Assembly (NCBI GenBank): GCA_030656035.1
Contig: JAUSOK010000085.1
Coordinates: 1-42,205 of the forward strand
Length of the DNA stretch: 42,205 nt
Direction: 5' to 3'
Source of the DNA: Syntrophales bacterium
Lineage (GTDB): Bacteria > Desulfobacterota > Syntrophia > Syntrophales > Fen-1087
The notes under the pieces are model-generated. The model searched no databases. It was not told where the DNA came from and saw only the letters and a list, made by a program, of their open reading frames with translations. Positions 13,572-33,449 of the stretch are shown piece by piece. Position numbers and translations under genes: made by a program. Each line of letters starts with the position of its first letter. Positions within the stretch are counted from its first letter, which is position 1.

Positions 13572-15034
13572 CCGCCGAGAAACCGCGTGTCCGGTTCGCT
13601 CCCTCGCCGACGGGTGATCTTCATGTGGGTAATGCCAGGACGGCCCTGTTCAACTATCTGTTTGCCAGGCATCATGGTGGTGAATTCATTCTCCGGGTTG
13701 AAGATACGGATTCCGTGCGGACGTCAACGGATTCTGAACGCCGGATACTGGAGGATCTGGCGTGGCTGGCCATCGACTGGGATGAAGGTCCCGGCAGAGG
13801 CGGTGCAAAAGGCCCCTATCACCAGCGTGAACGGCTTGATTTGTATAGCCATTATCTGAAAATACTGATCCAGGCCGGATGCGTCTATCCCTGTTACTGC
13901 ACAGAGAAAGAACTGGAGGCGGAGCGGGCTGAGCTGATTTTCAGAAAAATGATGCCCCGTTATATGGGAAAGTGCCGGAACCTGAACGATTCAGAGCGTA
14001 AAAATCTGGCGGATCAGGGAAGAGAGCCGGCTTACCGCTTCAGGATCGGAACAGAGAGCATCGCGTTCACGGATTTGATCCGGGGCGCCATGAAATTTGA
14101 CGCCGGGGCAATAGGGGATTTCATCATCGTCCGCTCCAACGGCATCCCCGCTTACAATTTTGCCGTCGTCGTAGATGACTACCTGATGAGCATCTCCCAT
14201 GTAATCCGCGGAGAGGATCATCTTTCCAATACTGCCCTGCAGTTGCTGATCTATCGAGCCCTCGGTTTCAAGCCGCCCGTCTTTGCACATCACGCCCTCA
14301 TTCTGGGAAAAGACCGGTCCAAGCTCAGCAAGCGGCATGGATCCGTCACGGTCCGGGAATTCCGGGAAAGGGGTATCCTGCCGGAGGTTCTCCTGAACTA
14401 TCTTGCACTGCTTGGCAGTTCCCTTGGCGGCGGGCGGGAAGTCTGCGCCCTGGAAGAAATGATTACCTCTTTTTCGCTCGATCGCGCCGGAAAGAGCGGG
14501 GCCATCTTTGATGAGGACAAACTCAAATGGCTCAACGGGATCTATATCCGCCAGGGGGATTTGCACAGTTTAACCGAACGATTACTGCCTTTTATCAGGG
14601 CTGCCGGTTATCATAAAGTCGACACCCTTGACCGTGTGTGGCTTGAAAGGGTCATTGATGCGGTCCGGGGCGACCTGTCGACGTTGTCGGACATTGGGGA
14701 CCAGATGGATATTTTTTTCGATGACCGCTATGTCCTCTCCGGCGAGGCGCAGCGGCTTCTCGGGAAAGAACAGGCCCTGACCGTCGTCCGGGCGCTTCAG
14801 GAAGGCCTTGAGCATCCACCTCTTTCTGCCGACAACAGCTATCGGCGGATCATCGAGATTGTAAAAAGGAAGACCGGCGTCACGGGGAAAAACCTCTTCA
14901 TGCCGATTCGCGCCGTTGTGACCGGGAGAATAAGGGGACCGGAACTGGACAAGGTATTTGCGATTTTGAGCCCCGCATCCCTGAAACATCGGGTTGAAAC
15001 AGCGATCAGCGGTCTATCGGGGATAAACCGCTGA
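13568..15034 (+). CDS. gltX: Glutamyl-tRNA synthetase
   Basis: VRFAPSPTGDLHVGNARTALFNYLFARHHGGEFILRVEDTD; KMSKS-like KDRSKLSKRHGSVTV. Confidence 0.96.
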   Translation: MTAEKPRVRFAPSPTGDLHVGNARTALFNYLFARHHGGEFILRVEDTDSVRTSTDSERRILEDLAWLAIDWDEGPGRGGAKGPYHQRERLDLYSHYLKILIQAGCVYPCYCTEKELEAERAELIFRKMMPRYMGKCRNLNDSERKNLADQGREPAYRFRIGTESIAFTDLIRGAMKFDAGAIGDFIIVRSNGIPAYNFAVVVDDYLMSISHVIRGEDHLSNTALQLLIYRALGFKPPVFAHHALILGKDRSKLSKRHGSVTVREFRERGILPEVLLNYLALLGSSLGGGREVCALEEMITSFSLDRAGKSGAIFDEDKLKWLNGIYIRQGDLHSLTERLLPFIRAAGYHKVDTLDRVWLERVIDAVRGDLSTLSDIGDQMDIFFDDRYVLSGEAQRLLGKEQALTVVRALQEGLEHPPLSADNSYRRIIEIVKRKTGVTGKNLFMPIRAVVTGRIRGPELDKVFAILSPASLKHRVETAISGLSGINR

Positions 15035-15049
15035 TCGCCTGAGACGACA

Positions 15050-16618
15050 TTACAGCGGAATGTTATTGTGCTTCTTCGACAGCCGGACCTCCGTTTTGTC
15101 TTTCAGTGCGTCCAAGAGCGCGACAACCCGTTTGCGGGTGTCGCGGGGGGCGATGATCTCTTCGATGATGCCCATGCCGGCCGCAAAATAGGGATTGTTG
15201 AACTGATCTTCGTACGACGCGGCCAGTTCCGCGCGCTTGGCGGCGGGATCTTCTGCAGAAGCAATCTCCCTGCGGTAGATGATGTTGCAGGCGCCCTCCG
15301 CGCCCATCACGGCGATCTCCGCCGACGGCCAGGCCATCACATAGTCCGCGCCCAGATGCTTGCTGCACATGCCGATATAGGCGCCGCCGTAATCCTTGCG
15401 CGTCACCACGGTAATCTTCGGAACCGTCGCTTCCGCATAGGCATGGAGCAGCTTGGCGCCGTGGCTGATGATGCCCGCCCATTCCTGATTCGTGCCGGGC
15501 ATATAGCCGGGAACATCGGAGAAGGTCAACAGGGGGATGTTGAAGGCGTCGCAGAAGCGGATGAAACGGGAGGCCTTATCGGAGGCGTTGACATCCAGGA
15601 CGCCGGCCCCGAACTTCGGATTGTTGGCAATGACGCCGACCGTCCGGCCCATGATCCGGATGAACGCGACGAGCATGTTTTTCGCCCAGAGTTCGTGCGG
15701 TTCAAAGAGTTCGTTATTATCCGCCACGGCCATCACCACCTTCTTCATATCATAGCCGCGCGTGGTCTTGTCCGGGATAATCCCGTCCAGTTCCGGGCAT
15801 TCCCGGTCCGGGCTGTCCGAAGAGTTCACAGCCGGCAGGGGAATGTGGCAGCTGTCGGGCAGGTAAGAGAGCAGGGTCCGAACCTTATTGATGCAGTCCT
15901 CATCATTTTCCGTGGCAAAATGGCAAACGCCGCTCTTGGTCGCGTGGGCCATGGCGCCGCCCAGGTCATCGTGCGTGACCTCTTCGCCGATGACGGCTTT
16001 GATGACATCGGGACCCGTGATGTACATGTAACTGGTTTTCTTGACCATAAAAACCCAGTCCGTCAGGGCCGGAGAATAAACGGCGCCGCCCGCCGTGGGT
16101 CCCATGATCGCGGTGATCTGGGGGATGTATCCGGAACCGATGGTATTGCGGTAGAAGATGCCGCCGTATCCGTCCAGGGCCGGAACGCCTTCCTGAATCC
16201 GGGCGCCGCCGGAATCATTCATGGAGACGAAGGGTTTACGCGCATCGAGGGCCATATCCATAATCTTCCAGATTTTCCTGGAATGCATTTCACCGAGGCT
16301 GCCGCCGGAGCTCGTAAAATCCTGCGCAGCGGCAAAGACCGTCCTTCCGTTGACCTTCCCGAAGCCGGTAATCACGCCGTCGGCATTGATCTCTTTCTTG
16401 TCCAGGCCGAACAGTGTAGATCGGTGTTTCACGAAAAGCTGTACTTCCTGAAAAGTTCCCTGATCAAAAAACCGATCCAGCCTCTCCCGGGCCGTGAGTT
16501 TGCCCAGTTCATGCTGCTTGGCGACCATTTTCTCGCCGCCCATTTTCATCAGGGCTTCCTTTCTGGCTTCAAAGGCCTTGATTTTCGCCTGTGTTCCCTT
16601 CAGTTGCTCTATTTCCAT
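15050..16618 (-). CDS. Acyl-CoA carboxylase/decarboxylase carboxyltransferase subunit (propionyl-CoA carboxylase beta / methylmalonyl-CoA decarboxylase alpha type)
   Basis: GKLTARERLDRFFDQGTFQEV...FTSSGGSLGEMHSRKIWKIMDMAL...MNDSGGARIQEGVPALDGYGGIF...FSDVPGYMPGTNQEWAGIISHGAKLLHAYAEATVPKITVVTRKDYGGAYIGMCSK. Confidence 0.94.
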   Translation of the reverse strand: MEIEQLKGTQAKIKAFEARKEALMKMGGEKMVAKQHELGKLTARERLDRFFDQGTFQEVQLFVKHRSTLFGLDKKEINADGVITGFGKVNGRTVFAAAQDFTSSGGSLGEMHSRKIWKIMDMALDARKPFVSMNDSGGARIQEGVPALDGYGGIFYRNTIGSGYIPQITAIMGPTAGGAVYSPALTDWVFMVKKTSYMYITGPDVIKAVIGEEVTHDDLGGAMAHATKSGVCHFATENDEDCINKVRTLLSYLPDSCHIPLPAVNSSDSPDRECPELDGIIPDKTTRGYDMKKVVMAVADNNELFEPHELWAKNMLVAFIRIMGRTVGVIANNPKFGAGVLDVNASDKASRFIRFCDAFNIPLLTFSDVPGYMPGTNQEWAGIISHGAKLLHAYAEATVPKITVVTRKDYGGAYIGMCSKHLGADYVMAWPSAEIAVMGAEGACNIIYRREIASAEDPAAKRAELAASYEDQFNNPYFAAGMGIIEEIIAPRDTRKRVVALLDALKDKTEVRLSKKHNNIPL

Positions 16619-18884: not shown

Positions 18885-19742
18885 ATGAGAATCCTGATCC
18901 TTGGACATCGCGGAATGCTGGGCAGTGAACTCCTTGGGAGATTGTCGGCCGGTCATGAGGTGACCGGAAAAGATATTGATGAATTCGATATCGCCTCCGC
19001 AGGCGACTGCCGGCGTGTCATTGCGGAAGCGGAACCGGATGTCGTGATCAATGCGGCGGCGTATACGGATGTGGATGGTTCGGAAAAGGCAAGAGAATTG
19101 TGTTTTGCCGTCAATGCGGACGGCGTCAGGAATGTCGCCCTGGCCTGTCGTCCCGGCAGGATAGAAATTGTCCATTTCAGCACCGATTATGTCTTTGACG
19201 GGACGAAGGAGACGCCCTACCGGGAAGAAGACGCGATCCGCCCGCTGAATGTTTACGGCGAGGCCAAGCTGGCCGGAGAAAAAAATCTTCAGCAATACAG
19301 CGAGCACTATCTGCTCATTCGCACGGCATGGTTGTATGGCAGGCAGGGGAAGAATTTTGTCAAAACGATCATGGGCAAGGCCAGAGAGGTCGGGCGTCTC
19401 GAAGTTGTGAACGACCAGAAAGGGTCGCCGACATACGCAAAAGACCTGGCGGCGGCTGTCGAACGGCTTCTGACGGGCCGTCACACCGGCATTTTTCATG
19501 TGACAAACCGGGGGGCCTGCAGCTGGTATGAGTTTACGCTGAAGATCCTGGCCTATGCCGGAATCGACGACGTGCCGGTAATTCCGGTGAGTTCCCGCCG
19601 GCTCACACGGCCGGCGCAGCGGCCCCGTAATTCCGTTCTGGATTGTACGAGATTTGTCGAAGCGACGGGAAAGACGATGCGTTTCTGGCAACTCGCGCTT
19701 CAGGAGTATATAGCCCGGGAACGAATGACCGGCGGGAATTGA
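18885..19742 (+). CDS. rfbD: dTDP-4-dehydrorhamnose reductase
   Basis: MRILILGHRGMLGSELLGRL...DVVINAAAYTDVDGSEKARELCFAVNADGVRNVA...STDYVFDGTKETPYREEDAIRPLNVYGEAKLAGE. Confidence 0.93.
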   Translation: MRILILGHRGMLGSELLGRLSAGHEVTGKDIDEFDIASAGDCRRVIAEAEPDVVINAAAYTDVDGSEKARELCFAVNADGVRNVALACRPGRIEIVHFSTDYVFDGTKETPYREEDAIRPLNVYGEAKLAGEKNLQQYSEHYLLIRTAWLYGRQGKNFVKTIMGKAREVGRLEVVNDQKGSPTYAKDLAAAVERLLTGRHTGIFHVTNRGACSWYEFTLKILAYAGIDDVPVIPVSSRRLTRPAQRPRNSVLDCTRFVEATGKTMRFWQLALQEYIARERMTGGN

Positions 19743-19766: not shown

Positions 19767-19795
19767 TTGACAGACCATGGTAATGGCATTATGTT
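19767..19795 (+). promoter_or_regulatory. Strong putative sigma70 promoter for the envelope-protein block
   Basis: TTGACA - 17 nt - TATGTT, ~120 nt upstream of the ATG at 19916. Confidence 0.6.
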
Positions 19796-19915
19796 TACAT
19801 GAAACAGATATAAGCGGCTGTCCGGAACGATATGGACTTAAAATCGGTCCGTTACAGGCAGCCTGGGGCAATCGGGCGATGCGACGACAGACGTGTGATT
19901 TTTCAAGGTGAAGAG

Positions 19916-21031
19916 ATGAGACGCCTTTCGTTTTTTTTGGTTATCTGTGTAGGTTTTCTGCTCCCTGCTGTTGCCGCTGGACAGGAGAGGGTTCGTGCTG
20001 AAGGAATGGCCTCCATCATGAACAATCGCGTCGATATTGCCCGGGACAGGGCCATTGACAGCGCCCAGCGGAATGCCGTGGAACGGGTTGTCGGAGTTAT
20101 GGTCTCCAGCAGTACGGAAGTGGAAAACTTTCAAGTCAAGATGGATCGTATCCTTTCGGAATCAAAAGGATTTATCAAATCCTACAAGATTGTCAAGGAA
20201 GGAAAAGAGAGCGACGTCTATGAGGTGACCATCGACGCCGTGGTCGAGACGGGGCGGCTGAAGGACCGTCTGGAGGCTATCCAATTGATCCTGGCCAGGA
20301 AATCAAAACCCCGTCTGATGATTCTCTTTAATGAGCAGGTACAGAAGGATGCCATTGCAGAAGCGGCCATGGCGAGGTATTTCATGTCCCAGGGGTTTAA
20401 GCTGGTCGATGCCGGGGTGGCCAGAAAAAACAGAGATGTGCAGGCTCTCCATGATTCCGCCGATCGCCGGCAGATGACCGGCATTGCCCAGCGTTACGGA
20501 GCGGAAGTCCTGATCCTCGGCCGCGTGGAAGCGGCGAGCAAATCTTTCAAGATGGGCGATGTGGAAGTCCAGTCCAGCGATGTGGCCGTATCCGTGAAGG
20601 TCGTGAACGGGGACACGGGGGAGATTCTCGCATCCGACAGCAAGAGCCGGAGGGGAGAATTTAAAACCGTGACGGAAGGCGCGTCCGTGGATCTGGCGAA
20701 ACAGATGAAAGAAGAGATTCTGGAGCGTTGGTCTTCTGAGTTGACCAATACAGTGACCGTCAAATTAACTGTTTCGGGGTTGCAACATTACAGGGACCTG
20801 TCTCGTTTTAAGGAGATTTTGAACACGGAGATCAGGGGACTGAAGGAGATGCATCAACGGTCTTATGCGCGCGGGCAGGTTGAATTGGATCTGGAAATCA
20901 AGGGGAACACGCAGAATGTGGCCGACGACCTGTCTGCGATCACCCTGAATCAAAGGAAAGTAAGCATTCTGGAAATCACCCAGAATCGTATCAAAGCGAG
21001 TGTATCTTCGAAAAAAACGACGGAAGATTAA
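19916..21031 (+). CDS. Exported FlgT-like protein (flagellar assembly protein T N-terminal/middle-domain-like)
   Basis: Signal peptide MRRLSFFLVICVGFLLPAVAAGQ, then VRAEGMASIMNNRVDIARDRAIDSAQRNAVERVVGVMVSS (FlgT_N/LPP20-like pattern) and a Rossmann-like RLMILFNEQV...AEVLILGRVEA segment. Confidence 0.65.
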   Translation: MRRLSFFLVICVGFLLPAVAAGQERVRAEGMASIMNNRVDIARDRAIDSAQRNAVERVVGVMVSSSTEVENFQVKMDRILSESKGFIKSYKIVKEGKESDVYEVTIDAVVETGRLKDRLEAIQLILARKSKPRLMILFNEQVQKDAIAEAAMARYFMSQGFKLVDAGVARKNRDVQALHDSADRRQMTGIAQRYGAEVLILGRVEAASKSFKMGDVEVQSSDVAVSVKVVNGDTGEILASDSKSRRGEFKTVTEGASVDLAKQMKEEILERWSSELTNTVTVKLTVSGLQHYRDLSRFKEILNTEIRGLKEMHQRSYARGQVELDLEIKGNTQNVADDLSAITLNQRKVSILEITQNRIKASVSSKKTTED

Positions 21032-21043
21032 AGGGAGGTAGCT

Positions 21044-23035
21044 ATGAAACGGAAATCCTATCGAATAATTCTAACATCTTTGTTTGTCCTGGTGTTTCTT
21101 TCGGGCTGCGCCGTCAATGAAAGTTACAAAATGGGGCAGGATTTGAGCAACGAAGGACGATGGGATGATGCAATTGTCTATTTACAAAAAGCATTGGACG
21201 AGGAACCCGATAATCAGGAATTCAGGGATGCCCTGCAGGGAGCAAAGCGGGAGTACGCACGCGTCCGGTATGCAAAAGCGAAACAAACCCTGGATGCAGT
21301 GACGCAACCCAATCTGACCCACCTCCAGCAGGCGGCAAAGGAAGCCGACATTGCCCTTGCCCTGGAGCCCGATAACAAGGATATTATTACCTTCTCCGAT
21401 ACCGTGAAGGGGAAAATCACCCATCTCCAGGAAACCATCAAACCTCTCTATGAGCAGGCGCATCTGGATATGCAGAAAGAAGACTGGACGGCGGCAGTGG
21501 CGAAACTTCGCCAGGTCAACAGCATCTTTCCCAACTACGAGGAGACGGCCAGCCGGCTGACCAAAGCAGGACAGGAGGCCGCCCGCTCCCTCTATAAGCA
21601 GGGCGTGAAACTCGGGAAACAGGAGGAATGGAAACTGGCCGCGGCGTCTTTCAAGGCGGTTATGGACATCAACCCCAATTATTTTGACGTGGCCAAACTC
21701 TATCAGGACGCCGTCTCCAAAGATAATTTTGGCTATTATGCCGCTGTTGCCGAAAAGGCGAGCCAGGCGCAGAATTATGCCAAGGCGATCCTGCTCTACG
21801 AGAAAGCGCTGGAATATCAGCCGGACAACAGTGCGGTTATAAAAAAAGTGAAGGCGCTCAAAGACAAAGCCGGAAAGTTCTATTTTGACGAGGCGGTTGC
21901 CCTGGTTAACCAGAACAGATTCTACACGGCTTTAAAACACATCGAATTCATCAAAGCGCAAATGCCCGCGACGCAGGATGACCCCTTCTTCAAGGAGTTT
22001 ATCGACAAATTCTGCAGGAAGATGATGGACCGGGCAGATAGATATGTGGAAAAGGAGCTCTGGGGAAATGCTCTGATCTGGTACGAAAAAGTGGGATCCA
22101 TGAACCCGAACTATCCGGAACTATACGAGAAAATTCGGGATGTCCGTGAGGATCGCATTAAACGCAGAATCAAGAAGTCCATTGCGGTTTTTGATTTTAC
22201 CAGCCCCAGCAACGACAAGGACGCAGGGCGCAATGCCGCCGATAAACTGGTCGCCTATCTGTATCAGAAAGCCAGTTCGGATCTGCGGATTATCGAACGG
22301 GAAAACCTTCAGAATATTCTGAGGGAGATGCAGCTCGGGCAAAGCGGGCTCGTGGATACGAAATCGGCGCAGACCGTCGGGAAAATGAGAGGCATTGACA
22401 CCTTTATCATGGGTACGGTGCTCAAGCATTTCTCTTCAAAAACGGATTACGCGAGTATGGAACAAGTCAAGGTGCTCGTCGATGAGGAAGACGTCCGGAA
22501 TCCTGAATTTTCCGACTGGTTGATCATGAATCCCAAGCCGACCGAAGCGGACATGAAAAACGCTCCGCCGCGGACCATCAAGAAAAGAAACTATCAGTTC
22601 ATCTCCTATAAAAAAGGCGTCGCCAAGATCACGGCGCTCTTCGATATTTCCTACAAGCTTGTGGATACAGCAACAGGAGAAAATATTTTTACCAATACCA
22701 TCGCCGGCCGGCTCATTAAAGAAGACAAATATCAGGATGGGGTTCCGGTGGCCAAAATTCCCCATGATCCGCTGGAGATTCAGGTTGAATCCGAGGTCCT
22801 GGGCGAGCTGACGGATCAGAAAATTGCCGAAATGGGCCAGAGCGTGCTCAAGCATTTTCAAAGTCTTGAACTGGAGTATTATAATCAGGGACTGCAGCTC
22901 CAGAAGAACCGCAGGTATGATCGGGCCATCGAGAAATTTGTGGATGCCGTCTATAATGAAAAATTAAAGGGCATTTCGACACCCGTGTCACAAAATGCCT
23001 TGGAAGCCATTGATCATCTGATTCAGAGAATGTAG
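21044..23035 (+). CDS. Lipoprotein with TPR repeats and a CsgG-like domain
   Basis: Lipobox LFVLVFLSGCAV; multiple TPR-like units; CsgG-type core SIAVFDFTSPSNDKDAGRNAADKLVAYLYQKASSDLRIIERENLQNILREMQLGQSGLVDTKSAQTVGKMRGIDTFIMGTV. Confidence 0.82.
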   Translation: MKRKSYRIILTSLFVLVFLSGCAVNESYKMGQDLSNEGRWDDAIVYLQKALDEEPDNQEFRDALQGAKREYARVRYAKAKQTLDAVTQPNLTHLQQAAKEADIALALEPDNKDIITFSDTVKGKITHLQETIKPLYEQAHLDMQKEDWTAAVAKLRQVNSIFPNYEETASRLTKAGQEAARSLYKQGVKLGKQEEWKLAAASFKAVMDINPNYFDVAKLYQDAVSKDNFGYYAAVAEKASQAQNYAKAILLYEKALEYQPDNSAVIKKVKALKDKAGKFYFDEAVALVNQNRFYTALKHIEFIKAQMPATQDDPFFKEFIDKFCRKMMDRADRYVEKELWGNALIWYEKVGSMNPNYPELYEKIRDVREDRIKRRIKKSIAVFDFTSPSNDKDAGRNAADKLVAYLYQKASSDLRIIERENLQNILREMQLGQSGLVDTKSAQTVGKMRGIDTFIMGTVLKHFSSKTDYASMEQVKVLVDEEDVRNPEFSDWLIMNPKPTEADMKNAPPRTIKKRNYQFISYKKGVAKITALFDISYKLVDTATGENIFTNTIAGRLIKEDKYQDGVPVAKIPHDPLEIQVESEVLGELTDQKIAEMGQSVLKHFQSLELEYYNQGLQLQKNRRYDRAIEKFVDAVYNEKLKGISTPVSQNALEAIDHLIQRM

Positions 23036-23057
23036 GCCCTGATTCAAGGACCGTGTC

Positions 23058-25067
23058 ATGAGAGACTTGCGCATTTTCGGAAAGAAAAAAGGAAAAAAGA
23101 CGACGCTTTTTTCGGTCCTGCTGTTGCTCGTTGTCTTTTTCACACCCCATGCGGCCCATGCCGTGATGCAGGCAAAGACGGCCGTTTTCAATTTTGTCGC
23201 CTTGAACATGGAGGCTTCCGGTTACGGCACGGCGGTGACGAACATGCTGGGCGACTTACTCAAAACCAGCCTGAAATACGATGTCCTGGACCGCAAGGAC
23301 CTGGAGGCATTTTTAAATCTTAACGATTACCGGCAGGATGATAAAGTGGAAAACGCCGTCAATGTCGGCGCCAGGCTGAGCCTCAATATCGTCATCGTGG
23401 GAAATGTTGAGAAAAAGGGAACCTGGATCATTGTCAATTGTCGGGTGGTGTCCGTCGAACGGAAAAAGGTCATTCTCAATACACGTATGGGCGCACAGGG
23501 AGACGCCGGACTGTCTGTCGAACTCAGGAAGTTGACGGGATTGATCAACGAGGCCGTTGCCAAACACGCGTTGAATGCTGAAGGCGATGGGCAATTGAAG
23601 GCGCCCATGAATGTCCAGAAACGGCCGGGCAACAGGCAGATTTATCTCAGTTGGGAAGATCCGCCGGATACGAATGCTGACGGCTATGATATCTTTCGCA
23701 GTAATGCCGCAGCGGGCCCTTTTGCCAAGATCGGCCAGGTCAATCAGAGGGAGTACCTGGATAAGGGCCTGGAAAAAAGCGTAACCTATTATTATAAAAT
23801 CAAATCCTTCAAGACTACGGGACTGCAGAGCGGTTTCACCGGTGTTATCGCGGCAGAGACGGCGCTGACGCCGAATGCGCCGGTGATTCTGAGGACGGAA
23901 GCGCGGGTCAGAAGCGTGCAGTTGACCTGGTCGCCCAATCCCATCGCCGGCGAAGATCCCTTGATGCTCATGGGTTACAAATTATTCCGGGCCAAGCAGG
24001 AGCAGGGGCCCTTCAGGGAGGTGGCTGATCTGAAGGGAGCGGATCTGGGCGTCTCCAACGGCGCCCCGCTGGACAAAATCCTGCGGGTGACCTATGTGGA
24101 CAAGAATCTTGAAGACGGCCAGGAGGTGTATTATCGGCTGGCGGGTTACAATGAAAAGAAAATGGAAAGTGGTTTTTCCAGCATCGTCAAGGGCGTGGCG
24201 ATCCCCGTCGTCGTCGGTCTGTCCGCCCAGAGAGGCCTGGTCCGGGAGATCCGGCTTGCCTGGAATGCGATCGACTCTCCTTATTTGAAAGGTTATAACA
24301 TCTTTCGCCATACGCAGGAAGACGGAAATTATATCCGGATCAAGCAGATTGAAACAGGCAGGGGGCCTGAACCGAAGGTCCAATATACGGATCGGGACGG
24401 GCTGGGAGATGATGTCCGTTATTACTACCGTGTGACGGCTTATGACGATACCGAGCAGCAGACCGCTCCTCTGGCGGCCGTTTCGGCCGTGACCAAGCCC
24501 AGACCGGTCAAACCGGCAGGCTTGCAGGGAGAACCGCTCAAGATCAAATCCGTCCCGCTGTCGTGGCAGGCCAACCCGGAAAAGGATATCGTCGCCTATC
24601 ATATTTACCGCCAGGAAGGGACGACCGGCCGGTTTTCCGCCGTCGCGAAAGTTCAGGGCGGCGATACCCGGTATCAGGATAAAGATTTGAAAGACGGGAT
24701 TTCCTATGGTTATAAAATCCAGGCGGAAGATCAAGATGGCATATTGAGCGACTTTTCCGAAGAAATCCGTGTTTTGACAAAACCCAGACCGAAAAATCCC
24801 GAAGGACTGACCGGCGACTACCGGAATGGGACCGTCGAATTGACCTGGAAACCGGCGGGCGAGGCGGATTTAGCCTATTACAAGATCTACGAGAAATCAT
24901 TCTGGCAAACGGAGGTCGTTCCGGGCCTGGATCGTGTCACGGCCCCTTCTGTGACATTCAAAACGACTCTGGACAAGGGAAAGAAAAAAACATACATGGT
25001 CACGGCGGTTGATCGGGATGGTCTGGAAAGCGACTATAGTCTGGAGATCATCGTGACCGGGAATTGA
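23058..25067 (+). CDS. Exported protein with CsgG-like N-terminal domain and ~5 fibronectin type III repeats
   Basis: Signal peptide; TAVFNFVALNMEASGYGTAVTNMLGDLLKTSLKYDVLDRKDLEAFLNLNDYRQDDKVENAVNVGARLSLNIVIVGNVEK; then five FN3-like units of the form 'YxIFR....GPF..I.......Y.D..L..G..YYYK..A.....G..S'. Confidence 0.82.
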   Translation: MRDLRIFGKKKGKKTTLFSVLLLLVVFFTPHAAHAVMQAKTAVFNFVALNMEASGYGTAVTNMLGDLLKTSLKYDVLDRKDLEAFLNLNDYRQDDKVENAVNVGARLSLNIVIVGNVEKKGTWIIVNCRVVSVERKKVILNTRMGAQGDAGLSVELRKLTGLINEAVAKHALNAEGDGQLKAPMNVQKRPGNRQIYLSWEDPPDTNADGYDIFRSNAAAGPFAKIGQVNQREYLDKGLEKSVTYYYKIKSFKTTGLQSGFTGVIAAETALTPNAPVILRTEARVRSVQLTWSPNPIAGEDPLMLMGYKLFRAKQEQGPFREVADLKGADLGVSNGAPLDKILRVTYVDKNLEDGQEVYYRLAGYNEKKMESGFSSIVKGVAIPVVVGLSAQRGLVREIRLAWNAIDSPYLKGYNIFRHTQEDGNYIRIKQIETGRGPEPKVQYTDRDGLGDDVRYYYRVTAYDDTEQQTAPLAAVSAVTKPRPVKPAGLQGEPLKIKSVPLSWQANPEKDIVAYHIYRQEGTTGRFSAVAKVQGGDTRYQDKDLKDGISYGYKIQAEDQDGILSDFSEEIRVLTKPRPKNPEGLTGDYRNGTVELTWKPAGEADLAYYKIYEKSFWQTEVVPGLDRVTAPSVTFKTTLDKGKKKTYMVTAVDRDGLESDYSLEIIVTGN

Positions 25068-25375
25068 GCGCCAGGCTGAAAAACCGGATCACGGGACTGT
25101 GTCCCGCGGCGTAGCGCAGCGCCCGTCATATCAGCAGGTGGGGGCATTTCCATTTTGAAAGCCTGGCAGGCGTTCGCTGCCCGGTCTGCGCAATTTCGTA
25201 AGCCTGCCCTATCCTGCGGATAAAATTCAATATCTCAAGGGCGCAACCGCGACGCGTCAGCCCTTGGGTTTCGGCCAATGGGATGTTCTTGAAACGCCGG
25301 GCGATACGGAGGATTCCCTCTGCCTTTATCACGAAGCATCGGACGAACGATTAACACATACATGGAGGCCTCGTC

Positions 25376-28144
25376 ATGAATAACCCGCTGAAACTTATCG
25401 GCTCTATGTTAATGATCCTTTTTTTCCCGGTCTTGCTGATCCTGCAGGGCTGTGTGGTTGCGACCAAGGATACTCTCATTTTACCGCAGATCAGGTCTCT
25501 GTTTGAAGGCGCCTACGAGGTGGATCCCTACATGGCGGATCATAAGCCGCGCACGATTGCCGTTCTACCCTTTGTCAATCAGGCAAAAAGCCAGAATGGC
25601 TCCGAGGCCGTCCGCAGGGGATTTTATAATCACTTCAGTTCCCTGCCCTTCAAGGATATGGAACTCCACCGCGTGGACAATCTGCTGCGCAAGGCCGGGT
25701 TAGAGGATCCGGCGGTCATCGGCAAGACCCCTCCGCAGGATCTGGGCAAGATCCTCAACGTCGATGCCGTCATTTACGGGACCATTTCCGATTTTGATAA
25801 GCTGTTTGCCGTCATCTATTCCAATGTGTCCGTCGGGGCGGAAATCAAGATGATGGATACGAAAACGGGGAAAATGCTCTGGCGCGGGAAGCACGTCACA
25901 TACATTCATGAAGGCGGAATTTCCACAACACCGTTCGGGCTGGTGGCCACCGTGATCGCGACTGCAATGAATGTCCGGGATATCCAGTTGCTGCGCGCCT
26001 GCGACGACCTGTTCCGGGAAATGGTCAAGACGATTCCCGCACCGACTATCGCCGATGCCCTGCGGCCGCCTGTGATCACGCTGCTCGTTCAGGATACGAA
26101 GAATCTGCCGAAAAAGTCGGGCGACGAGATCCGCGTGGTGATTCAGGGAACGCCAAAAATGCAGGCCTATTTTCATATAGGCGAGTTTAAAAAGAACATC
26201 GACATGCTGGAGCAGGAAGGGGAACCCGGCGTCTATCTGGGTGTTTACAAGGTCATCCCCGGCGACAACGTGAGTAACGCCGTCATTACCGGCTTTCTGC
26301 GGGATGACGCCGGCAATACCGCAGAATGGGTGGACGCCGTCGGGAGCGTCACCCTCGATACGATTTCACCGGATAAACTGAAGAAAGTCAACACGGTGGG
26401 AAGAAACAACCTGGTGCTGCTCAATTGGGAAAAATCACCGGCGCCGGATCTGGCCGGCTACCGGGTCTATCGCAGCGCGACGCCGCTGAGCGGCTTCGAG
26501 GAGATCGCCGGGATGGAGTTCAGCGAGCTCCGCGACGAAAAGCTCGTCAATAACCAGAAGTATTATTATCAGGTATCCGCCGTGGACCGGGCCGGCAATG
26601 AAAGCGAAAAATCGGACACCGTGATGGGGATGCCCGTTGCGCCGGGTCCGACCCCGGTTTCCGGAGTCATCGAAACCGATACGACATGGTATGCCGGCGC
26701 CAGCCCCTATATTATTGATCGTACGGTCGTCGTCCGGGATAAGGCCTTGTTGACCATCGAACCGGGTACGGAGATCCGCTCCCGCGGCGGAGGGCTGGTT
26801 ATTGAAGGCCGTCTCAGCGCCCAGGGGGATGATGGGCACATTATCCGGTTCGAGACGCTGGAAGCGGGCAAACCCTGGGAAGGGATTGTCTTTAACAATG
26901 TGAAGGAAAAGGAAAACGTCCTGCGCTATTGCCGGATCAGCAATGCCTCAACTGCCGTTACCTGCCGGGCGGCCTCGCCGCGCATCAATTCCTGTGAGCT
27001 GACAGCCAATGGAACGGCGATCCGGATTCAGGGGACCTTCTCGAAGCCCGAAGTGGTGAAAAATACGATCCAAAAGAACACGGAGGCGGCCATTCTGATC
27101 GAGGCAGGAGCCCAGCCGGTTCTTACCGAAAATATCATTCAGGATAATGACCGGGAAGGCATCCGGATTAAGAGCGCATCACCGGTGATCCGCAACAATC
27201 AAATCCGGCAGAACCGCGGCTCGGGGATCACGGCGACAAACATCCAGGCGGTCATTGCCGGCAATAACCTGGTCGATAATAAACCCTTTGACATGGCGGG
27301 CGAGATGACAGGAGAAGCCGTCAATGCCCTGGACAACTGGTGGGGCAGCGTGCAGGGACTCGATATTCTTTCGAGAATCAGAGGAAAGATCAATATCAAG
27401 TCGGTGCTCAATGCCCCCTATCCGGAGGGGAAGTCCGTCGAACTGCCGATCCTTGCGCCGGTCCTGGGCGGGACACTGAAAGGGGATGCCTTCCTGATTC
27501 TGGCCAACAGCCCCTATCGGGTGACCCGGGATGTCGTAATCGATGGCGGCGCCACGCTCTACATCGAACCGGGGGTCGCCATTCAGTTTGATCAGAACAC
27601 CGCCGTGATTGCCCAAGACGGCGGCGTCATGGCCAAGGGGACCCGGGACGATCCCATTGTGTTCACTGCTTCAGCTGCGTCCCCCGTGCCCGGTTTTTAT
27701 GTCAGCGCCGTGAAATTCGTGAAGGAGACGAAGGTCAACAGCGCCTTTGCCTATTGCATAGTCAAATACGCGTCCGTGGCCTTTGACATCTGGTTCGGGG
27801 CGCCGGAGATCTCCTTCTGTCATGTTGCTCAAAACGCGCAAAGCGGCGTTTATGCCCGCAACAGTTCGACCCCGAAGCTCCTGTACAACACCTTTTCCGG
27901 GAACAGGGGAGAGGGGGCGATTACCTGCGTGGGGATGTCGAATCCGTCCATCCACCATAATAACTTCGTTGAGAATGAAGTGGCCATTCAGACGCGTTCA
28001 ACCATCTATATCGATGCCCGGAACAACTGGTGGGGCAGCGCGCCGCCGGATACGAGTTATATTTTCGGCGATCTGGACAGGAATATCAACATCAAGCCCT
28101 GGCTTGATGCGCCGGAAGGAAAGGCTTTCCGGGAAAGAAAGTAG
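25376..28144 (+). CDS. Lipoprotein: GNA1162/DUF799-like domain + FN3 + two right-handed beta-helix segments
   Basis: Lipobox LLILQGCVVA; KPRTIAVLPFVNQAKSQNGSEAVRRGFYNHFSSLPFKDMELHRVDNLLRKAGL...LGKILNVDAVIYGTISDFDKLFAVIYSNVSVGAEIKMMDTKTGKMLWRGKH; FN3 at NLVLLNWEKSPAPDLAGYRVYRSA; beta-helix repeats with two NWWGS-terminated blocks. Confidence 0.82.
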   Translation: MNNPLKLIGSMLMILFFPVLLILQGCVVATKDTLILPQIRSLFEGAYEVDPYMADHKPRTIAVLPFVNQAKSQNGSEAVRRGFYNHFSSLPFKDMELHRVDNLLRKAGLEDPAVIGKTPPQDLGKILNVDAVIYGTISDFDKLFAVIYSNVSVGAEIKMMDTKTGKMLWRGKHVTYIHEGGISTTPFGLVATVIATAMNVRDIQLLRACDDLFREMVKTIPAPTIADALRPPVITLLVQDTKNLPKKSGDEIRVVIQGTPKMQAYFHIGEFKKNIDMLEQEGEPGVYLGVYKVIPGDNVSNAVITGFLRDDAGNTAEWVDAVGSVTLDTISPDKLKKVNTVGRNNLVLLNWEKSPAPDLAGYRVYRSATPLSGFEEIAGMEFSELRDEKLVNNQKYYYQVSAVDRAGNESEKSDTVMGMPVAPGPTPVSGVIETDTTWYAGASPYIIDRTVVVRDKALLTIEPGTEIRSRGGGLVIEGRLSAQGDDGHIIRFETLEAGKPWEGIVFNNVKEKENVLRYCRISNASTAVTCRAASPRINSCELTANGTAIRIQGTFSKPEVVKNTIQKNTEAAILIEAGAQPVLTENIIQDNDREGIRIKSASPVIRNNQIRQNRGSGITATNIQAVIAGNNLVDNKPFDMAGEMTGEAVNALDNWWGSVQGLDILSRIRGKINIKSVLNAPYPEGKSVELPILAPVLGGTLKGDAFLILANSPYRVTRDVVIDGGATLYIEPGVAIQFDQNTAVIAQDGGVMAKGTRDDPIVFTASAASPVPGFYVSAVKFVKETKVNSAFAYCIVKYASVAFDIWFGAPEISFCHVAQNAQSGVYARNSSTPKLLYNTFSGNRGEGAITCVGMSNPSIHHNNFVENEVAIQTRSTIYIDARNNWWGSAPPDTSYIFGDLDRNINIKPWLDAPEGKAFRERK

Positions 28145-28298
28145 GGGGTTGCACGCTGCCGGGTGGGCGGCCACTTTTTCATTGAAAGCTTATGGGTATT
28201 TTGTTATTCCAATGCGTATGAAAAGGCGCCGCGCGGTAGATGCGGCGGATTTGAAACCGATACACAATATGCTATCTAAACCATAGAAGGAGGATTGT

Positions 28299-29234
28299 AT
28301 GAAGTCGAAAGGTGCGGTTATCATCGGGATGATGGCAATGATGTGCTTCCTCTTTGCCGGCGTCTCGGTTTGCCTGGCCCAGGGAGGAGACGGCCAGATC
28401 GGCCAGAAAGAATGGTCCAAGGTCATCGAGTCGAAGGTGGCCGAACAGGCCGGCGACAGGGCGATCATCAATTATGAAGATGGATATGTCGAGGCGGTCG
28501 GAATAGGGGCCGTGGATCCAGCCAGGGTCAAGGGGAGCAATGCGCGTCCCATGTGCCTGAGAGCCGCGACGGTCGATGGTTACCGAAATCTGCTCGAAGC
28601 GACCAAAGGAATCCAGGTCGACTCGCAGACGACCGTAAGGGATTTTGTCACCGAAAGCGACGTCATCAACGCCGCTGTCTCGGGACTTGTGCAAGGGGCT
28701 CAGGTTGTCAGCAAGGACTATCTCTCCGATGGGACCTGCGAGGTCACCTTGAGGATGTCGCTGAGCGGCAAGTTTACGCAAACCATCATCCCCAAAGCGA
28801 TTCAGGAAGAGCAAAAACGCGAGTCGCCTCCGCCTGCGCCGGTTAAACCTGAGCCACCGCCGGTTAAGCCAGAACCGGCGCCGGCAGCCGCGCCGGCTTA
28901 TACGGGAATGGTTGTGGATGCACGTGGCCTTGGAGTCCGGCCGGCCATGTCGCCGAAGATTGTGGACGAAACCGGCGCCGAGGTTTATGGGTCCATGGTC
29001 GTTGACAAAACATTTGCCGTTTCCCAGGGGATCAGCGGGTATGCCCGGGATCTGACAGCGGCCCAGGGCAACCAGCGGGTCACCAACAATCCCCTGACCG
29101 TGAAGGGCGTCGGCGCCGAAGGGGCCGGCAAGGCCGATATCAAAATCAGCAACGATGATGCCAGGCAGATCCGGTCCGCAGCGGAAAACCTGAGCTTCAT
29201 GAAAGAATGCCGGGTCATGATCGTCCTGGATTGA
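28299..29234 (+). CDS. Exported LPP20/FlgP-like protein with Pro-rich linker
   Basis: Signal peptide MKSKGAVIIGMMAMMCFLFAGVSVCLAQ; EAVGIGAVDPARVKGSNARPMCLRAATVDGYRNLLEATKGIQVDSQTTVRDFVTESDVINAAVSGLVQGAQVVSKDYLSDGTCEVTLRMSL; linker PPPAPVKPEPPPVKPEPAPAAAP. Confidence 0.75.
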   Translation: MKSKGAVIIGMMAMMCFLFAGVSVCLAQGGDGQIGQKEWSKVIESKVAEQAGDRAIINYEDGYVEAVGIGAVDPARVKGSNARPMCLRAATVDGYRNLLEATKGIQVDSQTTVRDFVTESDVINAAVSGLVQGAQVVSKDYLSDGTCEVTLRMSLSGKFTQTIIPKAIQEEQKRESPPPAPVKPEPPPVKPEPAPAAAPAYTGMVVDARGLGVRPAMSPKIVDETGAEVYGSMVVDKTFAVSQGISGYARDLTAAQGNQRVTNNPLTVKGVGAEGAGKADIKISNDDARQIRSAAENLSFMKECRVMIVLD

Positions 29235-29264
29235 TCCGGACTTTTTACGAAGCCGTCAATTTTT

Positions 29265-29306
29265 AAGACCGCAGTGATCGCACAACCGTTTGCTGCGGTC
29301 TTTTAT
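29265..29306 (+). terminator. Intrinsic terminator at the end of the envelope-protein block
   Basis: AAGACCGCAGTGATCGCACAACCGTTTGCTGCGGTCTTTTAT: GACCGCAG pairs with CTGCGGTC, followed by TTTT. Confidence 0.75.
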
Positions 29307-32249: not shown

Positions 32250-33449
32250 ATGATTGAATCGTCGCGGTATAAAAAATTATGGGTTTTGATAATGTTTTTT
32301 GCCTGCGTGCTTATGATTTCCTGCGCGCAGAAAGTGCGGGTTCCCACGAGTCAACTGGATACGCCGGATCATCACTTTGCTACGGGTATGAAGTTGCTGA
32401 ATCAGGAGAAATTCGGCGATGCCCAGCGGGAATTTGAGCTGGCCATTGAACTTGATCCCAAGTATGCCGGGGCGCATGCCGGCGTCGGCCTGGCCAAGGC
32501 CTATCAGGCCGATTACAAAGGCGGATTTGCAGCACTGGACAGAGCATTTGAAAATGCGAAATCGGATGAGGAAAAATTGTTTATTCACATCGGCTATATC
32601 CGGGTCAACACTCTGAGCCGCGCCTCCTGCATGCAGGTAGGGGTGGTCTGTAAAAGGGAGAATAAGGACTGGCTCGATCTGTCGCGCGGCGAGTTTGAAA
32701 AGGCCATCCTGATCGATCCGGCTTCCGCCGCCGCCTATTACTACATGGGATTGTGCTATAAAACGGCGCTGGACGTGGTGCAGGCTTCTCAGATGTTCAG
32801 CAAGGTCCTGGAATTCAAAAAGGATTATATCAATGAAGCCGATCGTGAGTGGAACCTCATGCAGAAGATCCAGCGGGCCATGCCGGGGTCCGTCACGGGC
32901 AGGCAGATCGCCTTTGTGGAAAAAATCACGCGGGCGGACGCCGCGGCCCTGTTTATGGAAGAGATGAAGATAGACACCCTTTATCGGAAGCGGACCCCGA
33001 AGACCTTCGATACGAGCTTCAAGAACCCGGAGAAAGCGGCGATAAAGCCGAAAGCCGCAGCGCCTCCGGCCGATATTATCAATCATCCCCTGAAGTCGGA
33101 TATCGAGGGGATTATCGAAATCGGCGTGCGCGGACTGGAAGCGTATCACGATGGTCTTTTCCGCCCCAACGATCTCGTTGAACGGGCGGCCTACGCCATG
33201 ATGATCGAAGACATCCTCATCAAGGTATCCGGGGATAACGCCCTGGCCACGAGGTTCATCGGCAGCACTTCGCCCTTTCCGGATCTGCGCTCCGATCTGC
33301 CCTATTTCAATGCCGTCATGGTCGTGACCACGCGGCAGATCATGGGGGCAAAAAACATCACCACCGGCGAGTTCGTTCCCATGGGGCCTGTGGGGGGCGC
33401 CGACGCGCTTTTGATCATCAGAAAAATCAGGGAAGAATTGAAATTTTAG
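32250..33449 (+). CDS. TPR-containing lipoprotein with C-terminal SLH-like region
   Basis: Lipobox FFACVLMISCAQ; TPR ATGMKLLNQEKFGDAQREFELAIELDPKYAGAHAGVGLAKA; C-terminal SLH-like pattern (DGLFRPNDLVERAAYAMMIEDI...SPFPDLRSDLPYFNAVMVVTTRQIMGAKN..GEFVPMGPVGGADALLIIRKI). Confidence 0.8.
   Translation: MIESSRYKKLWVLIMFFACVLMISCAQKVRVPTSQLDTPDHHFATGMKLLNQEKFGDAQREFELAIELDPKYAGAHAGVGLAKAYQADYKGGFAALDRAFENAKSDEEKLFIHIGYIRVNTLSRASCMQVGVVCKRENKDWLDLSRGEFEKAILIDPASAAAYYYMGLCYKTALDVVQASQMFSKVLEFKKDYINEADREWNLMQKIQRAMPGSVTGRQIAFVEKITRADAAALFMEEMKIDTLYRKRTPKTFDTSFKNPEKAAIKPKAAAPPADIINHPLKSDIEGIIEIGVRGLEAYHDGLFRPNDLVERAAYAMMIEDILIKVSGDNALATRFIGSTSPFPDLRSDLPYFNAVMVVTTRQIMGAKNITTGEFVPMGPVGGADALLIIRKIREELKF

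Follow-up and report, generated by a model that had tools for sequence, protein, structure and literature searches.

A conserved block of FlgT-, CsgG-, GNA1162- and FlgP-like envelope proteins in Syntrophales and its possible link to an MCE lipid transporter

At the outer membrane, the MCE tunnel PqiB is docked by a ring of the lipoprotein PqiC; the authors of that study also mention a PqiC homolog whose gene accompanies mlaFE and an MCE gene (PMC10897342). PelC, which serves polysaccharide export, likewise forms a ring and has a related fold (PMC12141448). In the FlgP family, an insert in the SHS2 domain is associated with ring formation (PMC12222027). A widespread gene set tying FlgT, FlgP and CsgG folds to an MCE operon whose ATPase is degenerate would offer an answer, amenable to testing, to the questions of how lipids pass through the periplasm and how MCE tunnels reach the outer membrane beyond a few model systems. 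Here we describe an ancient and widely conserved gene set, seen first in a Syntrophales bacterium. Because an unusual lipid-transport system is repeatedly encoded next to it or elsewhere in the genomes that carry it, the set may form the outer-membrane end of a lipid pump.

Five exported proteins and their folds

The window (the whole stretch of 42,205 nucleotides analysed) is contig C46 of a draft genome of 1.98 Mb. According to the ORF listing, positions 19916-29234 of its + strand are filled by five ORFs, P1 to P5, in agreement with the initial annotation of five consecutive exported proteins or lipoproteins. Signal peptides and lipoboxes, judged by eye on ortholog N-termini, indicated that P2 and P4 are predicted lipoproteins and that P1, P3 and P5 are of the SPase I type. 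The features are as follows.

19767-19795, + strand: candidate sigma-70-like promoter, TTGACA-17-TATGTT (10 of 12 positions matching)
19916-21031, + strand: P1, exported FlgT/LipL46-like protein of 371 aa (Pfam FlgT_N, 1.7e-8; Foldseek, FlgT; LipL46, 2.4e-17)
21044-23035, + strand: P2, predicted lipoprotein, TPR superhelix and CsgG-like domain (Pfam TPR_2, 6.6e-17; CsgG, 1.7e-9; AlphaFold2 pLDDT 88)
23058-25067, + strand: P3, exported, CsgG-like N-domain and about five FN3 domains (Pfam fn3, 9.3e-18; CsgG, 0.014)
25076-25347, + strand: remnant of an MBL-fold hydrolase gene (tblastn of the L035 MBL protein, E = 2.8e-20, matched in two segments that lie in different frames)
25376-28144, + strand: P4, predicted lipoprotein, GNA1162 domain, FN3 and two right-handed beta-helix stretches (Pfam GNA1162-like, 1.8e-18; Beta_helix, 1.8e-23; fn3, 0.011)
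28299-29234, + strand: P5, exported, LPP20/FlgP-like domain and conserved C-terminal domain (FlgP structures; 5jir; Pfam LPP20, 0.0036)
about 29265-29302, + strand: intrinsic terminator (dG -21.3 kcal/mol, z -6.0)
32250-33449, + strand: TPR/SLH lipoprotein, associated member after mutL-miaA (homologs in the neighbourhoods of 23 of the 58 P1 loci from outside the order)

The domain calls of the initial annotation stood above the Pfam cut-offs for P1 (FlgT_N), P2 (TPR and CsgG) and P4 (GNA1162 and Beta_helix), and fell below them for the CsgG domain of P3 and the LPP20 domain of P5. The terminator called at 29265 was confirmed as a strong one. The promoter called at 19767 is unproven, because 11 such sites were counted against 8.1 +/- 2.9 in shuffled sequences, a number within chance.

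Judged from an alignment of 25 orthologs, P1 begins at 19916, so the ATG found further upstream, at 19832, is not its start. A Foldseek search with the AlphaFold2 model of P1 (pLDDT 75, pTM 0.45) ranked two FlgT structures first among PDB entries, 3w1e (9e-12) and, from the LPHT ring, 8z5n (1e-11); these alignments span about 390-410 columns with low TM-scores (0.25-0.31), leaving the domain arrangement open. Further fold matches were PelC, GNA1162, CsgG and LptE. By profile, the N-domain of P1 resembles FlgP, and the insert after the SHS2 helix aligns.

The P2 model comprises a TPR superhelix, a CsgG-like domain and one long beta hairpin at residues 453-541, in which hydrophobic residues alternate weakly. 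With a single long hairpin and such weak alternation, P2 need not form a pore. A Foldseek search with the whole of P2 was dominated by TPR proteins, CsgG appearing at rank 47 (4uv3, 1.5e-4). Orthologs of P2 are 47-63% identical across nearly the full length; within the order the full-length ones share 50-63%, and split-gene fragments reach 85%. In support of its CsgG call, P3 aligned to the CsgG domain of P2 with an E-value of 2.4e-4 and a probability of 44% (hhalign). A PDB profile search matched the N-domain of P4 to GNA1162 (4hrv, 4.5e-12). The family profile of P5 matched solved FlgP structures (9hmf, 1.3e-13; 8z5n, 2.4e-8), aligned through the insert, and its second half matched a 5jir chain (4e-7), which we take to be TP0624 of Treponema. 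At one relative's locus (L034), two opposite-strand ORFs past mutL match residues 1-182 and 206-311 of P5, perhaps representing a broken second copy.

The gap between P3 and P4 (25068-25375) is not empty, because it holds the decayed piece of the MBL-fold gene listed above. An intact MBL-fold gene lies between P3 and P4 in about eight loci, including L035, L037, L044, L048, L053, L058 and L069. A small, conserved exported protein with a consensus near YLVDTTTGAVWVLTYRTLATGREPIAIPYKFIK is encoded between or after P3 and P4 in L033, L034, L036, L038, L042, L051 and others; no trace of it was seen in the P3-P4 gap of the window.

Conservation within Syntrophales

Counted from the match table, P2 orthologs occur in 45 of the 149 genomes of the order. 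Wherever the contig permits a judgement, the relatives have P1-P2-P3 together and in unchanged order, and in about 28 Syntrophales loci this holds for all five genes. The initial annotation had made its proposal depend on co-conservation of the five genes in relatives, and this is what was found. The usual order is truA-rmlD-P1-P2-P3-P4-P5-mutL-miaA-TPR/SLH. Five loci (L045, L046, L050, L053 and L054) have another upstream flank, yet the five genes stay together. P1-P3 alone are kept in L051 and several Smithella-like loci. The TPR/SLH lipoprotein gene downstream of miaA is a member of the same gene set. Mean column identity is 70% for P4, the most conserved of the five, followed by P2 (63%), P5 (61%), P1 (59%) and P3 (56%).

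The genome of the window also encodes a second pair of FlgT-like and CsgG-like proteins (locus L186, G000:C163, 8538-10738); the 20 kb of sequence inspected there contain no MCE gene.

Linkage and co-occurrence with MCE operons

A scan of genome contigs detected P1-P2-P3 in other Desulfobacterota as well as in Gammaproteobacteria. In two gammaproteobacterial groups, represented by three loci of Catenovulum and by one MAG, P1-P2-P3 are encoded with MlaE, MlaF, an MCE protein, LPP20 genes and an MltC-like transglycosylase (Pfam on L117; the other loci judged by eye). P1-P2-P3 adjoin MlaEFD in L178 and also, among the loci from Gammaproteobacteria, in L117, L118, L122 and L126. A Colwellia locus with P1-P2-P3 contained no MCE genes. 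In a search across the order to which Catenovulum belongs, the matches outside Catenovulum itself were weak ones to P2 in 9 other genomes, so that the gene set is patchy there.

A search of 395 genomes of the phylum with the P1 profile gave 91 matches. Outside Syntrophales, MlaE was found near 14 of the 58 P1 loci whose neighbourhoods were read, across 8 families (binomial p ~1e-9 at an assumed chance rate of 3%, kinship being ignored). Leaving out L222 makes the count 13 of 58; since L222 has an intact ATPase and an MlaE that falls among the canonical ones, its pairing of MlaE and MlaF was considered a probable coincidence and set aside. In six loci (L181, L203, L207, L210, L211 and L214), homologs of P1, GNA1162, CsgG, TPR-SLH and LPP20 are followed by MlaE-MlaF-MlaD, and in two (L202 and L204) the arrangement relative to MlaE-MlaF-MlaD is reversed. 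The best ordered form, in L203, reads P1, GNA1162, CsgG, TPR-SLH, LPP20, an outer-membrane beta-barrel, MlaE, MlaF and MlaD, the beta-barrel gene (14716-15468) matching TIGR04219 at 3e-21, below the cut-off of that family. A second, common form of the set is P5-TPR/SLH-P1-GNA1162-CsgG-FecR-like; the FecR-like gene ends this form in L169, L174, L176, L185, L188, L189 and L191.

Within the order, no MCE gene was found in the window or in 714 kb around the block. MlaD of the type found in the linked operons, encoded away from the block, is present in 42 of 45 genomes with the block versus 50 of 104 others (p = 4e-8), and at a stricter cut-off in 40 of 45 versus 50 of 104 (p = 1.4e-6), E-value cut-offs having been chosen post hoc and related genomes counted as if independent. 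Counted by genus under the same post hoc cut-offs, the figures are 27 of 27 versus 12 of 26 (p = 4e-6) and, at the stricter cut-off, 25 of 27 versus 12 of 26 (p = 2.7e-4). Two points count against the link: the lack of MCE genes near the block in this order, and the occurrence of this MCE subfamily in half of those genomes that do not carry the block. The genome of the window encodes MlaE-MlaF-MlaD at L253 (G000:C126).

These operons are atypical in their MlaF-like gene. In the linked operons this gene lacks the LSGG motif except in L222, and Walker A is often missing, whereas both motifs are mostly retained in canonical operons from these or related genomes. In Syntrophales, the MlaF-like gene was recovered in 5 of the 30 loci compared (L230, L235, L245, L248 and L253), with Walker A or LSGG in none, and in L228 in a separate earlier run. 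The ORFs of these six loci are short (123-162 aa; 154 residues in the genome of the window). Judging from these sequences, the ATPase gene of the partner-type MCE operon in Syntrophales looks degenerate where found. In a tree of MlaE, the canonical rows and L222 stand apart from the rest (support 100/99); the Syntrophales clade has a long branch, and the linked sequences do not group as one clade, which also weighs against the link.

Interpretation and comparison with described systems

We propose that the block supplies a ring or docking module on the outer-membrane side of an atypical, Mla-like MCE lipid transporter, and put the probability of this at about one half. The proposal is based on gene order and co-occurrence, which support a link between the block and the MCE system without showing transport. 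It is favoured because PqiC offers a precedent for docking and PelC for the ring fold, and because the SHS2 insert aligns in P1 and P5. P1 with its FlgT fold, P5 with its FlgP-like SHS2 domain and insert, and P2, P3 and P4 with their CsgG/GNA1162 folds would assemble into rings under the outer membrane, where the lipids of P2 and P4 would anchor them. The rings would take the periplasmic end of the MCE protein carried by the MlaE-type permease, in the genome of the window presumably that of the unlinked operon on C126, in the way that the PqiC toroid receives PqiB, and the cargo would be lipid. Computation shows the folds, the export signals, the conservation of gene order, the linkage in other lineages and the co-occurrence across genomes; assembly into rings, docking to MlaD, lipid as the substrate and the partnership with the unlinked Syntrophales operon are inferred from these. 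As regards function, the initial annotation is supported in its envelope apparatus of outer-membrane or periplasmic ring-forming folds without flagella or curli; adhesion, secretion or syntrophic contact are not supported, and the recurrent partner is an MCE lipid transporter, which is not visible from the window.

The main rival is a lipid-independent scaffold of rings and the TPR/SLH lipoprotein, which would join the outer membrane to peptidoglycan and stabilise the envelope, comparable to LpoB, Tol-Pal or a motorless H-ring. Every part of the set is exported, the TPR/SLH lipoprotein recurs in it, the gammaproteobacterial sets include the MltC-like lytic transglycosylase, Pfam gave a weak LpoB match in P1, and the block is stable beside housekeeping genes. 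A scaffold would, however, leave the repeated MlaE-MlaD linkage and the co-occurrence unexplained, and we regard it as rather unlikely. A port for polysaccharide export, made of CsgG/PelC-type lipoprotein rings and a TPR protein as in PelBC, is improbable. PelC is among the fold matches of P1, P2 combines TPRs with a CsgG fold, and an rmlD-like sugar gene lies upstream of the block (18885-19742); but the neighbourhoods read showed neither a glycosyltransferase nor a synthase nor a PelB-like barrel, and rmlD is part of the truA flank and is missing where that flank differs.

Slightly less probable still is an apparatus for surface adhesion or protein secretion in cell contact, to which the FN3 and beta-helix extensions and the TPR part of P2 would point. 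The model of TraC, known from outer-membrane exchange in Myxococcus, matches 29 of 30 P2 orthologs (best 1.2e-17). The best TraC stretch in P2 of the window, however, is residues 7-113, i.e. signal peptide and TPRs, and the match as a whole reaches 46.7 bits against the NCBIfam equivalog cut-off of 500, so we rejected P2 as a TraC. Adhesion and secretion also found no support: no secreted substrate or curli subunit was seen, CsgF matched in 0 of 149 genomes of the order (the E. coli control was found), and the extension-bearing P4 is the most conserved protein. A role in syntrophic contact is not supported either, the P1-P2-P3 core being present in Catenovulum and Colwellia, which are not known to be syntrophs. 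Relict or accessory flagellar rings, suggested by the FlgT and FlgP folds, are contradicted by distribution and very improbable: FlgI is present in 22 of 45 genomes with the block versus 39 of 104 others (p = 0.21), with no match in 23 block genomes including that of the window. Since FlgI is not associated and CsgF is absent from the 149 genomes, the flagellar and curli readings fail; the initial annotation had likewise seen neither a flagellar gene nor a curli subunit in the stretch.

In the docking-module reading, the block and its partner might together constitute a trans-envelope lipid machine, undescribed in the literature we found, with an outer-membrane port of flagellar-ring and CsgG type and a degenerate MlaF-like ATPase, although we consider this fuller picture tentative, with the odds somewhat against it. 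With a degenerate ATPase, transport would be driven another way. Searches of open-licence literature for GNA1162 with CsgG, and for MlaD with CsgG or FlgT, found no description of the gene set. If the proposal is true, it would point to flagellar H-ring proteins as members of a more ancient family of rings at the outer membrane.

Compared with the flagellar H-ring of FlgO, FlgP and FlgT, the block differs in its lack of association with flagella. FlgT is the top fold match of P1 over most of the chain, with the low TM-scores given above; FlgP matches P5 and the N-domain of P1 by profile, insert included, and P5 differs from it in its additional C-terminal domain. That C-terminal part resembles TP0624, which has an OmpA-type domain missing from P5. 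LipL46 of Leptospira matches residues 24-339 of P1, but the score of 62.7 bits is under the NCBIfam equivalog cut-off of 400. The likeness to the curli pore lies in the CsgG domain of P2 and, weakly, P3; CsgG has two transmembrane hairpins where the P2 model has one, and the order lacks the CsgF of the curli system. Neisseria GNA1162 corresponds to the N-domain of P4, to which FN3 and two beta-helix stretches are added. The Mla and Pqi transporters share MlaE-MlaF-MlaD, here beside related gene sets, and differ in their MlaF, the subunit in linked and Syntrophales operons being, where recovered, without LSGG and often without Walker A. Finally, PqiC and PelC are lipoprotein rings of related fold built from one small lipoprotein, whereas the putative rings of the present set would combine several proteins that have diverged and consist of more than one domain, including TPR, FN3 and beta-helix parts.
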